A stretch of 64,000 bases of DNA, taken from assembly GCA_944390045.1 (NCBI GenBank), contig CALXOO010000001.1, positions 1 through 64,000 on the forward strand. The letters run 5' to 3'. The stretch is from an uncultured Spirochaetales bacterium. GTDB taxonomy: Bacteria; Spirochaetota; Spirochaetia; Sphaerochaetales; Sphaerochaetaceae. A program made the translations under genes and the position numbers. Shown here piece by piece: positions 17,513 to 40,546 of the stretch. Position 1 is the stretch's first letter. Each line of letters begins with the position of its first letter. A model generated the notes under the pieces. The model made no database searches. It saw nothing but the letters and a program-made list of their open reading frames with translations, and had not been told where the DNA came from.

Positions 17513-18001
17513 TTACGCCCCATACTCTTCTTCCATGATTCTCCTGCTGGCAGCATTGAGAAGCTTGCCAAGCGTGTCCTCGTAGAAATCAATCAGATCT
17601 GCGAGTGAGGAATCTGGTGTTTCTGCCAGGACGAGTTCCATCGGAGTCTTCTTCGCCAGTGAGAGGAAGAGGAGTTTCTCGGTGGCTGTGAGTCTGGTTG
17701 CCGACTGCGTGAGAAGCAGGAGAGGAGGGATGAAGTAGCCTTCTCTTATCAGCGTTTCAACTGTTGCCACGAAGACAATCGCTGAGATCTCGTCCTCGAC
17801 AATCACAGCTGCATGGCCGGCTTCTTCGGCGAACCTGGCTTCTATTTCCGTACTGACAATGACAATGTCCTGTACAGGGCTTTCAAGAAGATCTATCCAA
17901 TCTTCTTTCCTGTAGTCAGCGTTTGTCCTCACCATGCTGAGCCAGCTGGTTACTGGCATCCTGACAATGGTATTGGTTGCATGTTTTCTATCATCTCTCA
18001 T
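17513..18001 (-). CDS. Unknown protein, paralogue of the 21928-22380 product
   Basis: A 162-aa protein of no recognised family. It shares a clear pattern with the 150-aa product at 21928-22380: a V/I-rich strand (DIVIVSTE vs GVVIVGSS), AIVFVATV vs AVVFVTTV, and LLFLSLAKKTPMELVLAE vs FLFHSLARVTPTTLVMGD, then a DFY motif. The segments alternate hydrophobic strands and helices like a small Rossmann-type or regulatory fold; there is no signal peptide. Its start overlaps the primase gene end by 11 bp. A role in element maintenance or immunity is possible. Confidence 0.65.
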   Translation of the reverse strand: MRDDRKHATNTIVRMPVTSWLSMVRTNADYRKEDWIDLLESPVQDIVIVSTEIEARFAEEAGHAAVIVEDEISAIVFVATVETLIREGYFIPPLLLLTQSATRLTATEKLLFLSLAKKTPMELVLAETPDSSLADLIDFYEDTLGKLLNAASRRIMEEEYGA

Positions 18002-19121
18002 ATTCGATTTCCTCCTTGATTGAGATTGATTTTCTTGTCGTTGCTGAGGCTTTCTTCAGCAGTGCTTCAAGCGCATTGCTGTCGCTCTGAAGCAGGTCGT
18101 TGATGTCCTTCACTCCGGCTGGAAGACTCAGTTTTCCAGCTGTGATTCTGAAGGTGTCATGAAGCTTGGACTGGAATGATTCAGTCGCATTTTTACCCGG
18201 CTCATCGCTGTCGAAAGCAATGATGATCCGAGGACTGAGCAGACCTCTGCGATGACGTTCCTTGAGCTTCTCGCTCACCAGATTCATTGATGTCACTCCA
18301 GGAATGCTGGTGGCCTTGTACCCCAGCGAGATGATGCTGAGCGCATCGATCTCGCCTTCCGTGATGAAGACAGGATCAACGCTCTGTCCCAGACTTTCAG
18401 GGATGAAGAGTGCGTTCTTTCCTATTGTCTGAGCCTTGAAATCACCAGAGACATAGACCACTTCTCCAGTCAGCCTGTACTTCGTGTTACGGATACGGAA
18501 GGAGCCTCCATCAAGGGCAAAGACGACTCCTTCACAGGGATATGTCCTGCCAGGATTCGAGACCGAGAAGAGCCGCACATCCTCGATGTATCCAATCCTT
18601 GGCAACAGCTCTGATGGGAGTGTGTAAGGCTGGATTCCTCTTGCGAGAAGGGCTTTCTCTGTTCTTGTTGACCCTTCATGCAACCAGCGTGTATGAGACT
18701 GGATGATAACCTTGTTCTCGCTACGGATCTTCTCTTTTTCCTCGTCATCCAGATAATGGTAGTCACCGTCTCTTCTGGGTTCTTTGGCGTAGTCTGACGA
18801 AGCCAAAGCCCCCTGATTTTCTCTGTAGATGCTGCCTTCACCCATCATTGAGGCCAGCATCTCAAGACGCTCCAGGAATGGCTTCTCCGGGTACAGCATC
18901 TCCATCAGATCGAGGGTGTCGTGGGCTATGCCGTCACGCTCGTTGAAGTCTTTGTAGGCAGGATATCCATGGCGACTGAAGACGTCAAAACCGTTGCCGT
19001 TGTACCTGAATGAGTTCTTCCCATGCTTCCTGTCCCAGAGCCCCTCCGCCGTTATGACGTCCCTGAGCATGTCCTTGCTTTTCGCGATGATCCTATCTCT
19101 CTTTTCGTGTATGTCTTCCAT
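17991..19121 (-). CDS. TOPRIM-domain primase-like replication protein
   Basis: A 376-aa protein probably making primers for the element's replication. The TOPRIM fold is marked by FITEGEIDALS (catalytic Glu) and IIIAFDSDEPGKNA (the DxD), about residues 250-320. The N-terminal part (RHGYPAYKDFNERDGIAHDT) resembles the segment before TOPRIM in plasmid and phage primases, but I see no CHC2 zinc-finger cysteines. I start it at ATG 19121, which has GAGGAG 6 nt upstream; an ATG at 19184 overlapping the previous stop as ATGA would add 21 residues. It follows the helicase gene and overlaps the next gene by 11 bp. Confidence 0.78.
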   Translation of the reverse strand: MEDIHEKRDRIIAKSKDMLRDVITAEGLWDRKHGKNSFRYNGNGFDVFSRHGYPAYKDFNERDGIAHDTLDLMEMLYPEKPFLERLEMLASMMGEGSIYRENQGALASSDYAKEPRRDGDYHYLDDEEKEKIRSENKVIIQSHTRWLHEGSTRTEKALLARGIQPYTLPSELLPRIGYIEDVRLFSVSNPGRTYPCEGVVFALDGGSFRIRNTKYRLTGEVVYVSGDFKAQTIGKNALFIPESLGQSVDPVFITEGEIDALSIISLGYKATSIPGVTSMNLVSEKLKERHRRGLLSPRIIIAFDSDEPGKNATESFQSKLHDTFRITAGKLSLPAGVKDINDLLQSDSNALEALLKKASATTRKSISIKEEIEYER

Positions 19122-19180
19122 AGTCTTCTCCTCAGTACAAAGGCCCCCAGACCTCGCTAGGAGGCTGGAGACCTTGTTTC

Positions 19181-20074
19181 TCATCGGTCAGCTCTGAGGT
19201 CTGGCCTGCTGGATGTCAGAGGACATCCGTACGGGAGCAGGAAGGGCGAAGTCGGGTGGTCGCCATCCTCATCGACAAACGGCATCGTAATCGATGACTT
19301 TTTGAACTTGACAGGATCTATTGGCCTCGCATCTTTCTGATAAAGAGTGCTGAAGATTATGTCCCCTGTATAGGTCAGTTGCTTCCTGTTCATAGGATTC
19401 TCAATGCGTTCCCTAGCAAGGGAGAAAGCAGAGTCGAAGGCTGACTGGAAGACTTGCGACCCGAAGATGCAGTCCATGTCGAGCCCATCTGTAGCTCTCC
19501 TATTGGTGTGATGAGCGCAGAGAACTGCTATGTTGAGTTCCGTGAATCGATCGAGACAACTTCTGAATGCAAGAGCGTCAGAAGCGTTAGTCATATCACC
19601 GGAAAACATTGATGCGATGGGGTCAATAATGATCAGTTTTGGCATCAAAGCTCCCATAGCTGTGAGGTCTTTGCAGACCCGATCAATGTTCTCTATGGTG
19701 ATCAGAAATGCAGGTCCTCCATAGAAGAGGATATTCTGCACCATTGGATCAATTCCAAGAAACCGCTTTGTAGCTCGGAAGCGTCTCCTTGCAACTGTCG
19801 GAGCCTCATTTGTCAGATAAAGAATCCTTACCTGCCGTATGGCGTTCCCAATGAAGTCTGGGGCCCCCGCGGCGATGAGATTCGCAAGGATTGATATCAG
19901 AGTCGTCTTGCAGGTCTTTGCTGATGCGACAAAAAGGGTGACCATGCCGAGCATGATGATGTTCTTGGTGATATGGAACCCTTTGAAAAGATCCATGTCA
20001 GAAGTTTCTTCATCCGTTATGAACTTGCCTGACTCATAGGTTGGAGCAGGTTCAAGAATGTTATCTGTATACAT
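19181..20074 (-). CDS. RepA-like hexameric helicase (AAA_25 family)
   Basis: A 297-aa RecA-fold ATPase likely to be the element's replicative helicase. The P-loop is ASAKTCKTT near residue 50, where two usual glycines are Ala and Cys, an odd variant. Walker B is LIIIDPIASMF, and AVLCAHHTNRR matches the sensor His pair of RepA/DnaB-type helicases. ATG 20074 is chosen for its AGGAGG 4 nt upstream; the longer in-frame extension overlaps non-coding hairpins. With the downstream TOPRIM gene it forms a helicase-primase module typical of integrative elements that replicate. Confidence 0.8.
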   Translation of the reverse strand: MYTDNILEPAPTYESGKFITDEETSDMDLFKGFHITKNIIMLGMVTLFVASAKTCKTTLISILANLIAAGAPDFIGNAIRQVRILYLTNEAPTVARRRFRATKRFLGIDPMVQNILFYGGPAFLITIENIDRVCKDLTAMGALMPKLIIIDPIASMFSGDMTNASDALAFRSCLDRFTELNIAVLCAHHTNRRATDGLDMDCIFGSQVFQSAFDSAFSLARERIENPMNRKQLTYTGDIIFSTLYQKDARPIDPVKFKKSSITMPFVDEDGDHPTSPFLLPYGCPLTSSRPDLRADR

Positions 20075-20105
20075 TTTGCCTCCTAGCCGGAGGGGTGATT
20101 TTTGG

Positions 20106-20133
20106 GGTATAATGTTGTTGGTAAATGATACAA
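20106..20133 (-). promoter_or_regulatory. Candidate promoter of the helicase-primase-mob operon
   Basis: On the minus strand TTGTAT (20128-20133) and TATACC (20106-20111) are spaced by 16 bp, about 30 nt before the helicase start. The 20134-20335 gap also holds two perfect stem-loops: AGAGCCT/AGGCTCT at 20162-20178 and GGTCATCC/GGATGACC at 20255-20292. They may be an intrinsic stop for int or binding sites for replication proteins. Confidence 0.4.
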
Positions 20134-20335
20134 CTCCCAAGCCTCCGACTTGATGTTTGAAGAGCCTGTCAGGCTCTGAATATTCCGAAACATCATCTGC
20201 CAGGAGGCGGGCGTGCATAGCGCCTTATATTGGAAGTGCTATCATCTGTTGCGGTCATCCATTCAACTTTGGCGAGCGGTCTGGATGACCTCTTTTCATC
20301 TTCCTGATGAGGAAGAATCAAAACAAGAAGGAGTA

Positions 20336-21706
20336 TCATCTGCGCTTGACCTCCTTCTTCCACCAGCGGGGACAAAGGGTGTCCAGCGCCTTCTCGATGG
20401 ATTCGGTTTCTTCTGGGGTGAAGAAGCTGTCGATTGCCTCGATGATTGCTGGATAGGCCTCCCTTAACTGGGCCGTGTACCGAAGATTCATGGTGGACAG
20501 CCTTGCTGTATCATGCCCTGTGATAAGGCTGATGTTCGCATCGGAGATGTTCTTGGCTACCGCCCATGAGATGAAGCCATGGCGATAACTATGAAGGACG
20601 TAGCCCGACTTCTGCTGGACTTCCTCAGATATTCCTACTGCGCAGAGAGCCTTGATGAGGGCTCTTGAGTACTTGATTCTGGTGTATGGCTTCTTTCCGT
20701 CAAGGCTGAAGACAAAGTCCTCATCAGACTTCCCGACAAGCAGGGGGCATAGTGCCTTGACCACGAGGGCAGACATCGGGATCTCGCGAGTCGATCTGGT
20801 TTTCGTTGCTCCAATTTCACCACCCTTCTTCAGTGCCTGCTCAATCTGGATGACTCGGTTCTTGAGGTCGATATGTTTGATCTGCAAAGCCTCACCTTCG
20901 GAGATTCTGGTTCCAGTCCCGTTGAGAAAGACATTCATCGCGAATGATGGATAGTCGGTCCAAATGGCAGGATCAGAGAACATCTTCACAATCACTTCGT
21001 GAGGGAGCGGCTGGAAGCTGCGGGATGCAGACTTCCCTGGAAGCATCCTCATCGCCATCGGTATCGGGTTAAAATCGGTCTCTCCGATGACGATGAGATA
21101 AGAGAAAACCCATGACACCGCGAGGAGGATGTTCTTGACCGTACTGCTTGAAAGCTGTTTCCCTGAGTATTCCGAGAAGGTCTTCTTCTTACCTCTCCTT
21201 CCATTCATGCGAAGGTCTTTCACCATCGAGCGGATGAAGGTCACATCATTGAATTTCCACATGGGGGTGTCACCGAACCTGTCAAGGAAGAAGTGCAGGT
21301 TCCGGTTCATCGCTTGGAGTTCCTTGAGGTTTATCGGATTGCCTCGGAGATCCCTTTCCTGGACGTAGGGACCGTCGTCTGAATAGATATTTTCCGGCAC
21401 AACTGACCTGAGTGTCCTCTCGGCCCCAACAGGATCATGTCCGTTCTTCTCCAGTTTCAATAGGAAGTCGTCGAAATCCTTGGACTTCACGATTGATACG
21501 ACATGGTCAAGTGTCTCACCTGGCTGGACGTTCAGGTATGCCCTGAGCATGATTCCCCTGGCCGGGTATGGAGCTACGACCTGCAGGTTCTCTCCGCCAA
21601 GTTTCTTTGGTTTATGACGTCTTCCCGTTGCCTTGTATGGCAATGAAATCGATTCGTCAAATGGCAGGACATCGATTGTTCCTGCAACACGCGTCTTCTG
21701 GTCCAT
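20336..21706 (-). CDS. Tyrosine integrase of the mobilizable element
   Basis: A 456-aa site-specific recombinase that should integrate and, with the excisionase, release the element. Catalytic residues are visible: Arg in GTGTRISEGEAL, HSYRHGF (His-x-x-Arg), GHDT, and the nucleophile Tyr in MNLRYTAQLR near the C-terminus. An N-terminal SAM-like core-binding region spans roughly 115-230. ATG 21706 has AAGGAGG 5 nt upstream. The excisionase gene ends 10 nt before that start, so the two form one unit. The C-terminus carries a basic tail. Confidence 0.92.
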   Translation of the reverse strand: MDQKTRVAGTIDVLPFDESISLPYKATGRRHKPKKLGGENLQVVAPYPARGIMLRAYLNVQPGETLDHVVSIVKSKDFDDFLLKLEKNGHDPVGAERTLRSVVPENIYSDDGPYVQERDLRGNPINLKELQAMNRNLHFFLDRFGDTPMWKFNDVTFIRSMVKDLRMNGRRGKKKTFSEYSGKQLSSSTVKNILLAVSWVFSYLIVIGETDFNPIPMAMRMLPGKSASRSFQPLPHEVIVKMFSDPAIWTDYPSFAMNVFLNGTGTRISEGEALQIKHIDLKNRVIQIEQALKKGGEIGATKTRSTREIPMSALVVKALCPLLVGKSDEDFVFSLDGKKPYTRIKYSRALIKALCAVGISEEVQQKSGYVLHSYRHGFISWAVAKNISDANISLITGHDTARLSTMNLRYTAQLREAYPAIIEAIDSFFTPEETESIEKALDTLCPRWWKKEVKRR

Positions 21707-21716
21707 TCTTGCCTCC

Positions 21717-21887
21717 TTATGCGCGCTTCGATGCAATGTACGCATTGAGATCATCCTCGCTGACAAGTCTTTTGCCACCGATGACATACGACGGAAGTTC
21801 ACCCGACATGAGCAGGTCGTTGAGTGCTGTGAGACCCATTCTCAACGTTTGGGCGACTTCTTTTCTGGTGTGAAGTTTTATTTCCAT
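21717..21887 (-). CDS. Small excisionase-type DNA-binding protein (56 aa)
   Basis: A 56-aa protein with the HTH_17/excisionase pattern: HTRKEVAQTLRMGLTAL, then LPSYVIGGKRLVSEDDLNAYI. Such proteins bend DNA at att sites and favour excision. The ATG at 21887 has GGAGG 5 nt upstream, while earlier starts have none. It is immediately upstream of the integrase gene, which fits a directionality factor. Confidence 0.85.
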   Translation of the reverse strand: MEIKLHTRKEVAQTLRMGLTALNDLLMSGELPSYVIGGKRLVSEDDLNAYIASKRA

Positions 21888-23852: not shown

Positions 23853-23860
23853 AGTTTCTT

Positions 23861-23934
23861 CGTGAGAGACGGGGCTCGAACCCGCGATCTCCGGCGTGAC
23901 AGGCCAGCGCGATAACCAGCTTCGCTACTCCCAC
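23861..23934 (-). tRNA. tRNA-Asp (anticodon GTC)
   Basis: The minus strand folds as a 74-nt tRNA: acceptor GTGGGAG with CTCTCAC, anticodon stem CTGGC/GCCGG around loop CTGTCAC (anticodon GTC), and a T arm with GGTTCGAGCC. CCA is not encoded. The 3' end faces the mobile element, so this gene is the likely integration target, although I did not find the second att copy. Confidence 0.93.
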
Positions 23935-24034
23935 ATGCGAGGATAAACTTACCAAGAAGGGGAGTTTGTGTCAACATGAAATGGAAAATTTTTTTATAAA
24001 TTTTTACATTTCCTTTCAGTTTAAGTAATTACGT

Positions 24035-31904: not shown

Positions 31905-33227
<1,323 letters not shown>

Positions 33228-33613: not shown

Positions 33614-33642
33614 TTGACAGTTGCACAGTCTGAATCTAGAAT
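33614..33642 (+). promoter_or_regulatory. Near-consensus sigma70 promoter of OMP gene 1
   Basis: A perfect TTGACA (33614-33619) and TAGAAT (33637-33642) are 17 bp apart, predicting a start near 33649 and a leader of about 67 nt ending in GGAGG before ATG 33716. No equal promoter is seen before the two sister genes. Confidence 0.82.
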
Positions 33643-33707: not shown

Positions 33708-33796
33708 GAGGAATTATGAAAAGGACAATTGCAATTCTTCTGGTTGCAATCATGGCTGTAGGCTCCGCTTTTGCCGCCTTCAGTGGCAGCGCACAG
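33708..33796 (+). repeat. Direct repeat with OMP gene 2 across ribosome site and signal peptide
   Basis: From GAGGAATTATG through the codons for FSGSAQ this stretch is identical to the corresponding part of gene 2 (about 35193-35281), including synonymous sites. Outside it the genes diverge. Confidence 0.85.
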
Positions 33797-35080
33797 GTTG
33801 GTGTTGGTGCTGATTTCGAGAAGGGCAACTACGGCTTCATCGACAACAGCACAAAGGTTGACTTCAACATCGATCTCGCAACAGCCTCTGCTGAGGCCAT
33901 CAGCGAGGGTGACGTCTACGCTTCAATCAAGGGTTCACTCGGACTGGTTCTCGTTACAGACGAGGATGACATCAAACCCATTGACGATTCCAACGTTCTT
34001 GATCTTGAAACAAACTTTACTGATGGAACTCTTGCCCTCGGTATCTATGCTAAGATTGACGAGGCCAAGGTTGCCGGCGAGAACTGGTACATCAGTCTGC
34101 TCGGTGTTCCCGGAGGCCCCGATTTCGCAAAGTCCGCGATCGACACATACACAGTCGAAGATGACAAGACCGACTTCGGCAACAAGAAGGCTGACTATGA
34201 TGAGAATGTCACATATTCAGTTCCTTACATCAAGGCTCCCGGCGTTGAGGTCGGAATCTTCGATTATAAGATCGGATTCGGTTTCAAGGCCAATGCCCAG
34301 AAGGATCCCTTCAAGCTCGTCGAGGATTATGGTGTAACAGCATATGTCGCAACTCCTGAGTACGACCTCAATGGTCTGACTTTCCAGGTTGCCGGTGCTT
34401 ATTCCGCCACAGACAACAACAGCAAGAACTTCTCCAACAAGGATGACGGCCCCTACAATGCAATCGGTGCATCTGCAAAGGTCGGATTCACAAATGACGC
34501 CTTCGCTGTCAGCGCCGCTACAGATATCGGCTATGACATCGAGAACGAGAAGTTCGGCATGGATGCTGTCGCTAACTTCACATACGATTTCGTGACAGTT
34601 GACGCCTTCTATGCAACAGAGGCTCAGACAAACCAGGATAAGAGCACAACAGAGAACCTCCTCTCAACTCAGGTCAAGGTTGACCTCAACACAATGGATA
34701 TGCCTCTTGCTATCACAGTTTCCGCAAAGGATCTGGTCAACAAGCAGGATCTGGATGCCAAGGTTGAGATTGGTCTCGGTGCATTCACTCTCACACCGGC
34801 TGTCGGCTATGTCATCGACACAGAGAAGTTCAATGCCGGTATCGATGTTGCTTATGCACATGAGTACTTCACAGTCAAGGGCGCCTTCTCTCTCACAACC
34901 CAGTTTGAGGACAGGACAACCCAGCTCAAGGCCAGCGCATCCATTGAGAGTGCTTCCGTCATTCCTGGTGCCACAGTCAAGCTCGCATGGTCCAACGGTA
35001 ACGACCTCCTCAACTACGGTCTGGACAGTGATGGCCACACCTATGGTAAGGTTGTTGCTTCTATCAAGATGGCATTCTAA
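33716..35080 (+). CDS. Outer-membrane beta-barrel protein, copy 1 (expressed-copy candidate)
   Basis: A 454-aa predicted outer-membrane protein of a spirochaete family. Residues 1-20 are a signal peptide (MKRTIAILLVAIMAVGSAFA, cut after SAFA). The mature part alternates short amphipathic beta strands and acidic loops (AYSATDNNSKNFSNKDDG region) and ends in KVVASIKMAF, a C-terminal Phe typical of barrel substrates of the BAM complex. It is ~50% similar by eye to copy 2, with several near-identical stretches, and less so to copy 3. The 5' end is nucleotide-identical to copy 2 for about 89 bp. Pore, adhesin or surface-shield roles are all possible. Confidence 0.85.
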   Translation: MKRTIAILLVAIMAVGSAFAAFSGSAQVGVGADFEKGNYGFIDNSTKVDFNIDLATASAEAISEGDVYASIKGSLGLVLVTDEDDIKPIDDSNVLDLETNFTDGTLALGIYAKIDEAKVAGENWYISLLGVPGGPDFAKSAIDTYTVEDDKTDFGNKKADYDENVTYSVPYIKAPGVEVGIFDYKIGFGFKANAQKDPFKLVEDYGVTAYVATPEYDLNGLTFQVAGAYSATDNNSKNFSNKDDGPYNAIGASAKVGFTNDAFAVSAATDIGYDIENEKFGMDAVANFTYDFVTVDAFYATEAQTNQDKSTTENLLSTQVKVDLNTMDMPLAITVSAKDLVNKQDLDAKVEIGLGAFTLTPAVGYVIDTEKFNAGIDVAYAHEYFTVKGAFSLTTQFEDRTTQLKASASIESASVIPGATVKLAWSNGNDLLNYGLDSDGHTYGKVVASIKMAF

Positions 35081-35100
35081 AGATACAATGACATCAGTAA

Positions 35101-35130
35101 GGCCCGGGATCTGTTCCCGGGTCTTTTTTT
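35101..35130 (+). terminator. Intrinsic terminator between OMP genes 1 and 2
   Basis: A GC-rich stem CCCGGG/CCCGGG with a 7-nt loop is followed by seven T. It should stop transcription from gene 1 before gene 2. Confidence 0.92.
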
Positions 35131-35187
35131 GCTCTCAATATAGTGAATTTTGAATCCGAAGCTGTCACTGCAGAGAAGGGCCTGAAG

Positions 35188-35272
35188 CCACAGAGGAATT
35201 ATGAAAAGGACAATTGCAATTCTTCTGGTTGCAATCATGGCTGTAGGCTCCGCTTTTGCCGCCTTCAGTGGC
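35188..35272 (+). repeat. Left arm of an 85-bp inverted repeat (pairs with 38148-38232)
   Basis: The segment from CCACAGAGGAATTATG to TTCAGTGGC recurs inverted at the start of OMP gene 3 with one mismatch in 85 positions. It contains the ribosome site, the whole signal-peptide region and the palindrome AATTGCAATT. The arms are 2875 bp apart. Confidence 0.85.
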
Positions 35273-36586
35273 AGCGCACAGATTGGAGTAGGAGCCAACT
35301 TCGACAATGGAAATTACGGTTTCATCGACAACAGCAACAGTGTTGGCGTCAACTTTGAGCTTGCCAACATGGCCGGTGAGGCTGTTGGAGAGGGAGACAT
35401 CAGAGCATCCATCAAGGGTTCTCTCGTACTTGAGGTCTTCACTGCGGATGATTATGAGAAATCCGCAACTGATAAGAAGCCTCTTACAGCACCGAATGAT
35501 GTAATTGTCGGCGACTGGGGTGACAACATGTTCATCGGCCTTGGAGCTTCTGTCGATGAAGCCAAGATTGAGGGAAGCAACTGGTACATCAGCCTCCTTG
35601 GCGTTCCCGGAGGCCCTGACTTCGCAAAATCTGCAATCGACACCTACGACAAGGCTGTCAAGAAGTATGACATCGTCACTGACGAAGATGGGGCCACAGG
35701 CAATGCTTCCTGGTCTGTCCCATATGTGAAAGCTCCTGGCGTGGAGTTTGGAGTTGCTGATTACGTTGTCGGTGCAGGTTTCTGGGCTGATGCACAGAGC
35801 AATCCCGATTTTGATCTCTTCAACCAGTATGCTGCAACAGCATATTTCATGACTCCGAGCTATGATCTCAATGGCCTCACACTTCAGGCTGGTGCTGTAT
35901 ACTCACTGTCAAGCGGAGATTCTGACAAGTCCTTCTCAGATAAGAATGACAACAAGGCTTACAATTCCATCGGAGCATCTGCAAAGGTCGGATTCACAAA
36001 TGATGCCTTTGCTGTCAGCGCTGCTACAGATATCGGCTATGACATCGAAAATGAAGAGTTCGGTGCGGATGTCGCTGCAAACTTCACATACGACTTCCTG
36101 ACTGTCGACGCTTATTACGGAACCAACCCGACGACAAGTGAAAAAGCTCCCAAGAAGACTGAGAACCTTCTCTCTGCTCAGGTCATCACAGACCTCAATG
36201 CTATGGATATGCCGATCAAGGTCACAGCATCTGCAAAGGACCTGATCAATGCCCAGGACTTTGACCTTTCTGTCGAGTTCAAGGTTGGCGCCTTCACGCT
36301 GACTCCTTCTGTTGGCTACGTCATCAACACAGAGAAGTTCAACGCCGGACTCAAGGGTCAGTATGATCATGAGTACTTCACAGCCAAGGCTTCTGTTTCT
36401 GTCGAGACTGGATTCGACAAGCCGTCTACAAAACTCAAGGCCAGTGCCTCTGTTGAGAACACAACAATCATTCCAGGCTCAACAATTAAGCTTGAATGGA
36501 AGGATGCTGAGGATCTTCTCAACAACAGTGCTGATCACGAGAAGAACTTCGGAAAGCTCATTGCCTCAATCAAGGTTGAGTTCTGA
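35201..36586 (+). CDS. Outer-membrane beta-barrel protein, copy 2
   Basis: A 461-aa member of the same family, with the identical 20-residue signal peptide and C-terminal KLIASIKVEF. It shares blocks such as NWYISLLGVPGGPDFAKSAI and ASAKVGFTNDAFAVSAATDI with copy 1, while loops differ. It begins 70 bp after a strong terminator, and I see no convincing promoter in that gap, so it may be weakly expressed or silent unless recombination places it elsewhere. Its first 85 bp or so are repeated inverted at copy 3. Confidence 0.85.
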   Translation: MKRTIAILLVAIMAVGSAFAAFSGSAQIGVGANFDNGNYGFIDNSNSVGVNFELANMAGEAVGEGDIRASIKGSLVLEVFTADDYEKSATDKKPLTAPNDVIVGDWGDNMFIGLGASVDEAKIEGSNWYISLLGVPGGPDFAKSAIDTYDKAVKKYDIVTDEDGATGNASWSVPYVKAPGVEFGVADYVVGAGFWADAQSNPDFDLFNQYAATAYFMTPSYDLNGLTLQAGAVYSLSSGDSDKSFSDKNDNKAYNSIGASAKVGFTNDAFAVSAATDIGYDIENEEFGADVAANFTYDFLTVDAYYGTNPTTSEKAPKKTENLLSAQVITDLNAMDMPIKVTASAKDLINAQDFDLSVEFKVGAFTLTPSVGYVINTEKFNAGLKGQYDHEYFTAKASVSVETGFDKPSTKLKASASVENTTIIPGSTIKLEWKDAEDLLNNSADHEKNFGKLIASIKVEF

Positions 36587-36605
36587 TCCGAATTCAATAA
36601 GAAAC

Positions 36606-36640
36606 AGGAACCCTCAGACCCGAAATCTTAGGGTTCTTGT
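36606..36640 (+). terminator. Weak hairpin after OMP gene 2
   Basis: GAACCCT and AGGGTTC form a 7-bp stem with a long loop and a short T-rich tail (TCTTGTATT). Confidence 0.5.
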
Positions 36641-36676
36641 ATTATGGTCGCATGCTGGAAAGCTTGCGATAGAGAA

Positions 36677-36711
36677 TGATGGCCTCCGAATTTTTTCAGA
36701 GGCCATTTTTC
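36677..36711. terminator. Terminator between convergent OMP genes 2 and 3
   Basis: ATGGCCTC/GAGGCCAT is a perfect 8-bp stem followed on the plus strand by TTTTT. An outer pair CGATAG/CTATCG extends the symmetry. It ends gene 2 transcripts and may also stop gene 3 transcripts from the other side. Confidence 0.7.
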
Positions 36712-36728
36712 TGTCAGCTATCGAAAGA

Positions 36729-38219
36729 TCAGAATGTCATCTTGATGGATGCAGTCACCTTTCCAAGAGCCTCTGTTCCGTCATTCTCGGAATCGAAGAT
36801 ATCATCAGCATCTGCCCATGCGAGCTTGAGCGTCGCACCAGGAATGAGAGAATCCGTCTCAACTGCGGCATTGAGGCCGAGCTTGACTTCTGCTCCGTCC
36901 TTGATCTTCTGCTCTGCGGAAACGCCAGCTGTGATCTTCATGATATCCATTGTGTACTCTGCATCAAGACCAGCACTCCACTTGCCGACATATTTTCTTC
37001 CATCATCCTTGAGGATTGTGGCATTGTCGTCGCTGCTCTTGATATCTGTTGCAACTCTTCCCTCTGAGTCGATTGTGTAACCGGCAGAAGCGGTGAGCTT
37101 GAGGCTGTCAACAGCTGTGATCTCAGCAGAAACCTTGATCTCCTGAGTCGCAATGATATCATTCATGCCGACTGTGAGCGCGACAGGAACGTTGAAGCTG
37201 TTCATATCAACCTTGACCTGTGCAGAGAGCATGTTCTCTGAGTACTTCTTCCAGTAGCTGTCATTAGCACCTGCCTTCGGGCTCTTTCCTGTAACAGGGT
37301 TGGTGCCATAGTATGCATCAACTGTCAGGAAGTCATATGCGAAGTTGAAGGCCACATCAGCATCAAACTTGACATCATCATTCTTCGGGAACTTGAGAGA
37401 CAGATCACTGGCTGCTGTCAGGCTGAATGCATCAGATACATAGCCGACTTTAGCAGAAAGGTTCCAGGCGTTGGTCTGAGCCCATCCTGCTGTCTCATTC
37501 ACAGGAACTCCCTTATTGAGCTTTTCGAATGACTCATAGCTGTACACTGTTCCGATCTGGGCGATCAGGCCATTGAAGTTGTACTCAGGAGTCTCGAAGA
37601 AAGCTGCAAGGTTGATGCTCTCGGAGAACTTCCATGTATCAGCACTTGAATAGTCGCCAAGAAGGCCGAAACCTGCCTTATATCCAAAGACTGTGGCCTG
37701 TACGCCTGTTGCCTTCTCAAAGGGAAGAGATGTGTTGTAATTCTCATTGAAATCAGCCCTTTCAAGACCCCACTTGTCAATTCCCTTCTCAACTTTATAT
37801 GTCTGGAAGCCCTTTGCATAGTTGGGAGCATCTGCCAGGCCGAGGATGCTGACTTCCCAGTTGGATCCGGCAACCTTTGCCTCAGTTATGTCAGCAATGA
37901 TTCCAACCTTGTAATCGCTGTCTCCCTTGAGGGTAACATCTGTTGGATCTTCCACTTCGCCTCTCGTCTTCTCACCTGTTGTGAGCTTGAGGCCGAATGT
38001 TGCCTTAATTGAGGCATAGACATCACCTTCAGCGATCTGCTCTGCAGTGGCTGTAGCGAGATCAGCATCAATCTTGACCTTGGCACCGCTGTCAATGAAG
38101 CCATAATTGCCATTATCAAAGTTTCCACCAAAGCCAAGGCTTGCCTCGCCACTGAAGGCGGCAAAAGCGGAACCTACAGCCATGATTGCAACCAGAAGAA
38201 TTGCAATTGTCCTTTTCAT
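36729..38219 (-). CDS. Outer-membrane beta-barrel protein, copy 3 (inverted)
   Basis: A 496-aa member of the same family on the opposite strand. The signal peptide is identical to the other copies, the mature N-terminus starts FSGEASLGFGGNFDNGNYGFID, here cited as GGNFDNGNYGFID, and the C-terminus is GKVTASIKMTF. It is longer and more diverged than copies 1 and 2. GAGGAATT precedes its ATG as in the other copies. Its upstream region (38233-38374) shows only weak promoter-like elements. The tyrosine recombinase gene starts 155 bp away, pointing the other way. Confidence 0.85.
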   Translation of the reverse strand: MKRTIAILLVAIMAVGSAFAAFSGEASLGFGGNFDNGNYGFIDSGAKVKIDADLATATAEQIAEGDVYASIKATFGLKLTTGEKTRGEVEDPTDVTLKGDSDYKVGIIADITEAKVAGSNWEVSILGLADAPNYAKGFQTYKVEKGIDKWGLERADFNENYNTSLPFEKATGVQATVFGYKAGFGLLGDYSSADTWKFSESINLAAFFETPEYNFNGLIAQIGTVYSYESFEKLNKGVPVNETAGWAQTNAWNLSAKVGYVSDAFSLTAASDLSLKFPKNDDVKFDADVAFNFAYDFLTVDAYYGTNPVTGKSPKAGANDSYWKKYSENMLSAQVKVDMNSFNVPVALTVGMNDIIATQEIKVSAEITAVDSLKLTASAGYTIDSEGRVATDIKSSDDNATILKDDGRKYVGKWSAGLDAEYTMDIMKITAGVSAEQKIKDGAEVKLGLNAAVETDSLIPGATLKLAWADADDIFDSENDGTEALGKVTASIKMTF

Positions 38220-38232
38220 AATTCCTCTGTGG
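38148..38232 (-). repeat. Right arm of the 85-bp inverted repeat
   Basis: Inverted copy of 35188-35272; the only difference is GGTTCC for GGCTCC in the signal-peptide region. Inversion between the arms would exchange the bodies of OMP genes 2 and 3 behind each other's upstream DNA. Confidence 0.85.
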
Positions 38233-38374: not shown

Positions 38375-39574
38375 ATGGCAAAACGAAAAGCTTTCTATCT
38401 GTACAAGAGGAAAAAGAAAGGTGGAGCATATTGGTATGTATGCTTTATTAATCCTGTAAACGGCAGACAGGGCAATGCAAAGAGCATTGATGTCCTGAAA
38501 GAGGAACTTAACCTTGGATCCGGCTACCGTGTTAAAGACAGGGACAGTGCGGCAATCATAGCCGGAAAGGCACTGGAGGCGGGAATTGTGTATCCGAACC
38601 ATATTCCGTTCACTTCATACTGCCTGTCATTCTGGGACTATGAGACAAGCCAGTATGTAAAGCTGAGGAACAGCATGCGACCCGGTGCGATAGGACGTGA
38701 GTACTGCAAGAACATGACATCTTACTACACAAGGCATGTCGCACCGGTGATAGGCGGCAGGACGAGGCTCTGTGCCGTCACAGTGGAGCTGCTGGACAAA
38801 GTAATATCAACCGCGCTGGACAGAGGGCTGTCAACCGGAACCGTGCAGCTGATTGTCCTTTCCTTCTCAGTCCCTCTGAAGGAGGCTGCCAGAAAGCGGC
38901 TGATCAGAATGAATCCTGCTGATTACATCATGCCTGTGCCCCGCAGCGGAAGGGAGCGCGGCGTGTTGAGTGCGCAGGAAGTGACGGCACTGGTCTCACT
39001 GATTGACTCAAAAGGTCAGTCAGACAGACCTGCTCAAGCCATAAAACTCGCACTTGCAAGCGGGATGAGGAGCGGTGAACTCAGGGCGCTGAAATGTGAG
39101 GATATTGACCTGTACCATTATCTCAGAGATGACGGCATTACGCTTGCCAGAATCAGGATCAGTAAGTCGATCGCCCCGTATACAGGAGTGAAATGTCCGA
39201 AAAACGGCAAGAGCAGGGATGTGTTCATCGACAATACATTTGCCCTGGAACTCTGTTCCGCCGCAAGGGATGATGGACTGGTCTTTCCCGGCATGAAATC
39301 CTGCCATATGACTTCTGTTGCCCTTCGTGACAGCTTTTACCGGCTGCTGTCAGAACTGGGAATAGATGAGCAGATGCGTAAGAGCCGCAATCTCACATTC
39401 CATTCACTCCGGCATACTTTCAACACGCTTCTTTTACAGGAGAGAATCCCGATAGAAGGCCGGATGGCCGCACTGGGACACTCAAGTATGAGTGTCAATC
39501 TGAAATACACTCATGACAGCGATTGCCTTCTTGTCGATGTCAGCCGTCTGAGCAGCAGAATACTGGCAAAATGA
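38375..39574 (+). CDS. Stand-alone tyrosine recombinase next to the OMP genes
   Basis: A 399-aa phage-integrase-family recombinase, apparently active: Arg in ASGMRSGELRAL, HSLRHTF, GHSS and the nucleophile Tyr in NLKYTHDS. The N-terminal third is a core-binding domain. GGAGG precedes the ATG. No excisionase, phage or mobilization gene accompanies it: one side is OMP gene 3 and the other a nagB-like gene 30 bp away. It could be the relic of a lost element or a recombinase serving the OMP inverted repeats. It is only distantly like the integrase at 20336-21706. Confidence 0.9.
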   Translation: MAKRKAFYLYKRKKKGGAYWYVCFINPVNGRQGNAKSIDVLKEELNLGSGYRVKDRDSAAIIAGKALEAGIVYPNHIPFTSYCLSFWDYETSQYVKLRNSMRPGAIGREYCKNMTSYYTRHVAPVIGGRTRLCAVTVELLDKVISTALDRGLSTGTVQLIVLSFSVPLKEAARKRLIRMNPADYIMPVPRSGRERGVLSAQEVTALVSLIDSKGQSDRPAQAIKLALASGMRSGELRALKCEDIDLYHYLRDDGITLARIRISKSIAPYTGVKCPKNGKSRDVFIDNTFALELCSAARDDGLVFPGMKSCHMTSVALRDSFYRLLSELGIDEQMRKSRNLTFHSLRHTFNTLLLQERIPIEGRMAALGHSSMSVNLKYTHDSDCLLVDVSRLSSRILAK

Positions 39575-39604: not shown

Positions 39605-40357
39605 TCAGTCCCGCCGTCCGTCCGCAAACACAAGTGCCGATGACAGTCTGTCAAGGTATAGTGAGCAGTCGTATGACATCCTCAGGGCAGATGAGGGACT
39701 GAGGACAGTGACATCATCAAAAAGGCAGGAAGCCACGGCCTTTGCCTTCCGCTGATCAGGGCACGACACGATAATGTGTCTTGCGCTGAGTATCTCGCTA
39801 ACAGACATGGTTACAGCCTTGGCAGGCACATCATCCAGTGAGCTGAACCAGCCCTCGCTGACCTGCTGGCGGCGTGAGCGTTTCTCGAGGTCCACCACGA
39901 TATACGGATCACGGGTGTCAAAGTCGGCAGGAGGGTCATTGAATGCCAGGTGCCCGTTCTCACCTATGCAGATGAAGGCGACATCAAGCTTGTGGCTTGC
40001 CATGAGCTTGTTCAGTTTATTCACGGTTTTCTCCAGACTGGCCTCATCTGTATCAATCGGCGTGTAGCTCTTGACCTGACCGATATGACTCAGGAAGAAT
40101 TCCTGGAGAAAGTATTTCGATGACGAGAGTGAGTCTTTTTTCAGTCCGACAAACTCATCAAGATGAAAAACATTGACCTGGCTCCAGTCAACATCCTGCT
40201 TTGCAAGATTGAGAAGAGTCTCGACCTGACTTTTGCCGGTCACAAAGACGACGTTTGCCTCTCCGTTCTCAGCAATGGCCTGCCTGATGCAGGAAGCACC
40301 TTCTCTTGCAGCTAGTACTCCAAGCTCTTTCTTTGAATCACAGATCGTTACTCTCAT
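39605..40357 (-). CDS. nagB: Glucosamine-6-phosphate deaminase-like protein
   Basis: A 250-aa sugar-phosphate isomerase/deaminase, expected to turn glucosamine 6-phosphate into fructose 6-phosphate and ammonia. FHLDEFVGL carries the catalytic Asp and IGENGHLAFNDPP the catalytic His. VPAKAVTMSVSEI corresponds to the family's substrate-site segment. The first loop, VTGKSQVETL, departs from the usual ATGSTP, so a related substrate is possible. ATG 40357 is chosen: the sequence before it is not family-like and would run toward the tRNA-Arg gene, while GGAGG lies 11 nt upstream. No nagA is next to it. Confidence 0.82.
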   Translation of the reverse strand: MRVTICDSKKELGVLAAREGASCIRQAIAENGEANVVFVTGKSQVETLLNLAKQDVDWSQVNVFHLDEFVGLKKDSLSSSKYFLQEFFLSHIGQVKSYTPIDTDEASLEKTVNKLNKLMASHKLDVAFICIGENGHLAFNDPPADFDTRDPYIVVDLEKRSRRQQVSEGWFSSLDDVPAKAVTMSVSEILSARHIIVSCPDQRKAKAVASCLFDDVTVLSPSSALRMSYDCSLYLDRLSSALVFADGRRD

Positions 40358-40472
40358 TGATCCTGGAACCTCCAGAAAAAAGGTAGTAAATCGGTGATAA
40401 ATTATCAAGCTGGGGTTATGGACATTTTCCATACAATCGTCTATATATACAAAAGCATCCTGATGGAGTCTT

Positions 40473-40546
40473 GGTCCCATAGCTCAGCTGGATAGAGCAC
40501 TTCCCTCCTAAGGAAGGGGTCGCGCGTTCGAATCGCGCTGGGGCCA
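40473..40546 (+). tRNA. tRNA-Arg (anticodon CCT)
   Basis: A 74-nt cloverleaf: acceptor GGTCCCA with TGGGGCC, D arm with AGCTCAGCTGGATAGAGC, anticodon stem CTTCC/GGAAG around CTCCTAA (anticodon CCT), T arm with GTTCGAATC. CCA is not encoded. It reads into the NusG-like gene 21 bp downstream. Confidence 0.94.

Follow-up and report, generated by a model that had tools for sequence, protein, structure and literature searches.

A locus in the genome of an uncultured gut spirochaete carries three outer-membrane protein (OMP) genes that begin with the same DNA, and we consider it quite probable that it constitutes a system in which site-specific inversions decide which surface-protein gene lies behind a single promoter. 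Comparison with related genomes shows that recombination at a short putative site within the signal-peptide code swaps the protein body placed behind the promoter, and a tyrosine recombinase encoded next to the OMP genes is probably the catalyst of the switch. The first-pass annotation, made from the letters of the window (the whole stretch of DNA analysed, 64,000 nucleotides), had proposed a possible invertible outer-membrane protein locus, and that interpretation was largely supported. The features of the locus, in coordinates of the window, are the following:

31932 to 33227, plus strand: eno (enolase), conserved neighbour upstream of the expression site
33614 to 33642, plus strand: expression-site promoter TTGACA-17-TAGAAT, with 11 of 12 consensus matches
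33708 to 33750, plus strand: R1, the 43-bp shared block of g1 (-8 to +35), containing ATTGCAA-N9-TTGCAAT at 33728-33750
33716 to 35080, plus strand: g1, outer-membrane beta-barrel protein gene, the copy currently behind the promoter
35099 to 35125, plus strand: terminator-like hairpin in the interval between g1 and g2
35193 to 35235, plus strand: R2, the shared block of g2, direct with respect to R1
35201 to 36586, plus strand: g2, OMP gene without promoter, whose closest homologue is the promoter copy of genome G009
36679 to 36706, minus strand: terminator-like hairpin 3' of g3
36729 to 38219, minus strand: g3, OMP gene without promoter, in the opposite orientation
38185 to 38227, minus strand: R3, the shared block of g3, inverted with respect to R1 and R2
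38375 to 39574, plus strand: tyrosine recombinase, probable switch enzyme (PF00589, E 3.4e-18; motifs kept; linkage in relatives)
39605 to 40480, minus strand: nagB-like gene, probably starting at 40357, conserved beside the recombinase

The three OMP genes share their start DNA, silent sites included, as had been noticed in the first-pass annotation, and the two repeat arrangements it described were confirmed. Genes g1 and g2 carry a direct repeat, identical over 89 bp from -8 to +81 (33708-33796 and 35193-35281), and g2 and g3 carry an inverted repeat of 85 bp (35188-35272 versus 38148-38232) with a single mismatch (C/T at +48), the two arms being 2.9 kb apart. At the identical residues of the first 25 codons, Met and Trp excluded, the codons agree in 23/23 positions for g1/g2 and in 21/22 for both g1/g3 and g2/g3; outside these 25 codons, about half to two thirds of the identical residues have the same codon, and the silent-site excess at the g1/g2 start gives p = 4e-5 in a Fisher test. 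Upstream of -8 the sequences of the three genes are unrelated (19-23 differences per 32 bases), and past the shared start the identity drops to the ordinary level of paralogues, 60% and 47% of amino acids with respect to g1. No further OMP copies were found in the rest of the host genome, a 2.0-Mb MAG of 62 contigs that is about 91% complete.

Only g1 has a near-consensus promoter, also in agreement with the first-pass annotation; no strong promoter like that of g1 was found upstream of g2 or g3, both of which we would expect to be silent. Single matches to the promoter consensus occur near the chance rate, and the weight of the g1 promoter lies in its conservation in 13 genomes: in 13/13 genomes of the genus, TTGACA-17-TA(G/A)AAT precedes exactly one copy, its position relative to the start codon being -99 to -102. 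The flank of this orthologous promoter adjoins eno in every genome where that flank was read, and the loci of relatives in which eno neighbours the promoter copy are L038, L040, L041, L042, L131 and L132. The terminator that had been proposed to separate g1 from g2 corresponds to the terminator-like hairpin at 35099-35125.

A degenerate pattern of the 43-bp block (-8 to +35) was present in 11 of the 139 genomes of the family, all of the same genus, with 1-4 copies each, and the reversed control pattern had zero occurrences in the same 139 genomes. A named member of the genus is Candidatus Aphodenecus pullistercoris (Spirochaetota), and the genus name Aphodenecus appears in a chicken gut survey (PMC8035907). 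Within a genome the copies are letter-identical over the 43 bases, the sole exception being base -8 of a single copy in G006. Blocks from different genomes show an average of 3.8 differences, most of them silent, and 0 of 5000 shuffles of the genome labels gave a within-genome difference as low as the one observed. The flanks of the block are strongly different within most genomes, and the identity common to all copies ends sharply after 42-43 bp. Of the 9 genomes that have both kinds of copy, 8 (all but G009) carry G at base -9 of the promoter copy and A at base -9 of silent ones; this base stays with its flank, and therefore the exchange does not spread upstream. Most of the cores contain the dyad ATTGCAA-N9-TTGCAAT, centred at +24, and in the group formed by G003, G006 and G011 a dyad pair remains complementary through silent changes at both +18 and +30, another pair being lost. 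The dyad, which is matched by 1.5-3% of shuffles, may be taken as mild support for a recombination site at this place. The extent of the block confines the exchange to -8..+35; in G015 the shared block begins after the ATG, and there the exchange is confined to positions downstream of the ATG.

The first-pass annotation had not mentioned the recombinase gene beside g3. It is intact (399 aa), divergent from g3, and starts 156 bp from the start codon of g3. Its product matches PF00589, the tyrosine recombinase/phage integrase family, with 66.5 bits against a cut-off of 27.1, and presents the catalytic Arg, HxxR, His/Trp and Tyr motifs (GMRSGE, HSLRH, LGH and YTH), which are kept among the homologues; a single-sequence structure model was uninformative (pLDDT 35). 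The protein does not qualify as XerC or XerD, the enzymes of chromosome dimer resolution, since it reached 41 bits against equivalog cut-offs of 335 and 330, and a separate, strong tandem pair is located on another contig. An origin from a prophage was set aside as well: the nagB-like gene adjoins the recombinase in genera g1, g16 and g18 (genus labels, not gene names), and because this neighbourhood is kept in g16 and g18 the recombinase looks chromosomal rather than a prophage remnant.

In the genus, the recombinase was found beside OMP cassettes in the window (G000) and in six other genomes, G002, G003, G005, G006, G009 and G012. In two of these assemblies the gene is interrupted, by a frame change in G009 (L036 6462-7594) and by one stop in G003 (L048 4768-5937), due to either decay or assembly error. 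The assemblies of G001, G013 and G010, where nagB is located elsewhere and the contigs break in the cluster, yielded no homologue of the recombinase; these three genomes have blocks or the promoter site nonetheless. In genus g16 (L115-L126), most genomes keep the recombinase beside nagB and have no OMP repeats within the stretch read, and for this reason the presence of a recombinase homologue was not considered sufficient to prove the system. The window contains, in addition, a second tyrosine-recombinase-like gene (20336-21802, minus strand), beside primase/topoisomerase-like and ATPase-like ORFs (17991-21802), and a tRNA-Asp at 23860-23935 lies near it. No second copy of the tRNA-Asp end was found in the window, and the region 17991-21802 is possibly an integrated element.

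The exchange of bodies that the first-pass annotation had predicted through the shared 5' blocks, together with the shuffled OMP bodies that it had suggested looking for among strains, was found between species. Genomes G001 (L040) and G013 (L042) have in common the promoter flank (4.1 kb, 94%), the silent flank (3.4 kb, 91%) and an OMP body, A, that is 97.7% identical. In G001 body A (start 10973, minus strand) is linked to the promoter, whereas in G013 it (start 3061, minus strand) follows the silent flank, and base-by-base alignments of the two genomes place the joints inside the shared block. The two genomes differ on the downstream side of body A as well, and therefore one inversion is insufficient and the exact events are not reconstructable; part of this exchange may be homologous. 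A second pair, G010 and G013, has a promoter flank in common (92.7%) with different bodies behind it. Furthermore, in G009, where eno and nagB are arranged collinearly with the window, the promoter copy is the closest homologue of the promoterless g2 (76% nt, 78% aa), the figure for g1 being lower (69% nt). A maximum-likelihood tree was built from 28 bodies, and the promoter label has to change 9 times along it, with at least 8 of the changes on well-supported branches; shuffled labels give 9.1, and thus the position behind the promoter carries no history. The silent copy of G015 has no start codon, with an in-frame stop 12 codons upstream; translation could next begin 27 codons later, beyond the signal peptide, so that a secreted product could arise from this copy only once it had been joined to the promoter site.

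The first-pass annotation had attributed the swapping to inversion or gene conversion. The exchange itself is supported, and site-specific recombination fits it better than gene conversion because the identity stops sharply (-8 to +35), base -9 stays with the flank and a recombinase is linked. The strongest rival is that RecA-type homologous recombination or gene conversion through the 5' blocks shuffles the bodies, with the recombinase as an unrelated neighbour, and we regard it as unlikely. In its favour are the exchange between close species whose assemblies yielded no recombinase homologue, the extension of the identity beyond the block into the body in some genomes, and the exact stretches that the 3' ends of the G001 paralogues also have in common. 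However, the identity of all copies is limited to those 42-43 bp with their sharp ends, the -9 base stays with its flank in 8 of 9 genomes, and linkage of recombinase and cassettes is seen in seven genomes of the genus and in another genus.

The comparisons were drawn mostly from draft assemblies, and several contigs end in blocks, as expected for repeats or mixed arrangements. Repeats in such metagenome assemblies could have wrongly joined flanks to bodies, an explanation which the many-contig drafts and the contigs ending in or near blocks (G002, G008, G010) would favour. We consider it very improbable: the facts that do not depend on the joints (identical blocks within each genome, a single promoter in each, a linked recombinase) stand in any case, and the swapped joints are repeated in several genome pairs. 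Slightly less probable still is a recent duplication with the signal peptide and the ribosome site under strong constraint and no active exchange, which would explain a signal peptide similar throughout the genus and leaders of obvious use, but which fails on silent sites that agree within genomes and differ between them (the first-pass annotation had already preferred recombination on account of the identity at silent sites and in the 5' untranslated region), on bodies that are old paralogues (45-60% identical to g1) and on body A standing behind different flanks in two species.

The inversion system that we propose would work as follows. One expression site 3' of eno holds the only strong promoter and its leader, and every OMP cassette opens with the same 43-bp block, which comprises the ribosome site, the start codon and the first part of the signal peptide. 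The recombinase would pair two blocks and exchange strands within the signal-peptide code; the spacer between the two halves of ATTGCAA-N9-TTGCAAT is the probable place. Recombination between opposed blocks (R1 with R3, R2 with R3) would result in inversion, and such inversions could place any of g1, g2 and g3 behind the promoter in one or two steps, whereas the direct blocks R1 and R2 could allow the excision of a 1.5-kb cassette. In this manner, cells would alternate the OMP that is made, and each swapped gene would keep an intact signal peptide. This proposal is consistent with one promoter accompanied by several copies with identical 5' sites, with a recombinase linked to them in the window and in six further genomes of the genus (some others yielded none), and with different bodies at the promoter swapped at the site, a finding made between species only. 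Inversion would presumably be reversible within one strain, and its purpose would be surface diversification.

Related arrangements were observed in other genera. In G114, of genus g18, nagB is followed by the recombinase homologue, then by a convergent pair of OMP genes whose start codons lie in a 52-bp inverted repeat, then by one more gene and finally by eno. A wider reading, which in our opinion is evenly balanced between true and false, is that this spirochaete family maintains, in the neighbourhood of eno and nagB, a recombinase that acts on a site concealed in the stretch of porin-like genes encoding the signal peptide, enzyme and site having co-diverged; species would therefore carry differing silent-site versions of the block with a nearly constant signal peptide.

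Other clusters of the relatives deserve mention on their own account. In G022 (genus g8), L043 3172-19899 contains five OMP genes in both orientations with common starts of 55-81 bp (MKKGIIVLLITVLAAG), and a sixth OMP gene with the same signal peptide is present in L055; this signal peptide differs from that of the window, and no recombinase was found near the G022 OMP genes. In G015, a very divergent tyrosine recombinase (L041 1375-2532) occupies the corresponding position between the OMP cassettes and nagB, and the shared block has also diverged. ATPase-like genes with GRRRVGKTTLI and GARRVGKS motifs are located between cassettes in the OMP clusters of relatives:

L040 1695-7501: OMP cluster with ATPase-like genes
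L042 102-6380: OMP cluster with ATPase-like genes
L038 6611-7960: OMP cluster with ATPase-like genes
L043 542-6129 and 15426-16835: OMP cluster with ATPase-like genes

With respect to the proteins, no Pfam family match was obtained for the OMPs. The structure model of g1 (pLDDT 62.8, moderate confidence) presents a signal helix followed by strands numbering about 20 or more, and its best matches in the PDB are outer-membrane barrels with low TM-score. The g1 sequence ends in Phe; signal peptide, strands and C-terminal Phe are those of an outer-membrane beta-barrel protein, which would be exposed at the surface and might act as a porin or an adhesin. The proteins do not belong to the vpma/vsp gene family proper: they have no lipobox, because the common leader MKRTIAILLVAIMAVGSAFA-AFSG is without cysteine.

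Tyrosine recombinases inverting segments of surface-protein genes are known from the Tsr-controlled outer surface proteins of Bacteroides fragilis and from the R64 shufflon (Rci). The shufflon alters the C-terminal ends of one gene, whereas here whole bodies join one promoter and leader. A close likeness is to the vpma/Xer1 system of Mycoplasma agalactiae, where one promoter serves silent surface-protein genes and inversions link a silent ORF to it (PMC2268961). That system, like vsp of M. bovis and vsa/HvsR of M. pulmonis, has one promoter, conserved 5' ends and a linked tyrosine recombinase. However, the vpma products are lipoproteins of wall-less bacteria and ours are beta-barrel OMPs; the site proposed for vpma lies in the 5' untranslated region (-1 to -72) and here it would lie in the signal-peptide code; and M. 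pulmonis moves the promoter together with the first 714 coding bases. For Omp1 of Dichelobacter nodosus, a 1995 title cited in PMC5903667 announces a multiple site-specific inversion model of OMP phase/antigenic variation, a likeness drawn from the title. For this genus, or for shufflons in spirochaetes, the literature searched yielded only that citing survey, which reports an inversion signal in one of eight spirochaete species, not named in its text (PMC5903667).

Among spirochaetes, the vmp/vlsE genes of Borrelia and tprK of Treponema also combine one expression site with silent copies of surface-protein genes. Variation of Treponema tprK occurs by gene conversion. In Borrelia hermsii, antigenic variation is likewise a non-reciprocal gene conversion (PMC6011951). 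We found no comparable spirochaete system described in the open-access literature searched, and we make no claim of priority. The locus keeps its probable recombination site within the coding sequence, where it can be read from the identity of silent sites, and identical start blocks with one promoter offer a simple genomic test for such loci in uncultured gut bacteria. Unlike the gene conversion of Borrelia and Treponema, the locus has short common sites and a linked recombinase, and, if our reading is true, site-specific OMP shuffling reaches the spirochaetes, whose best-known surface switching is gene conversion.
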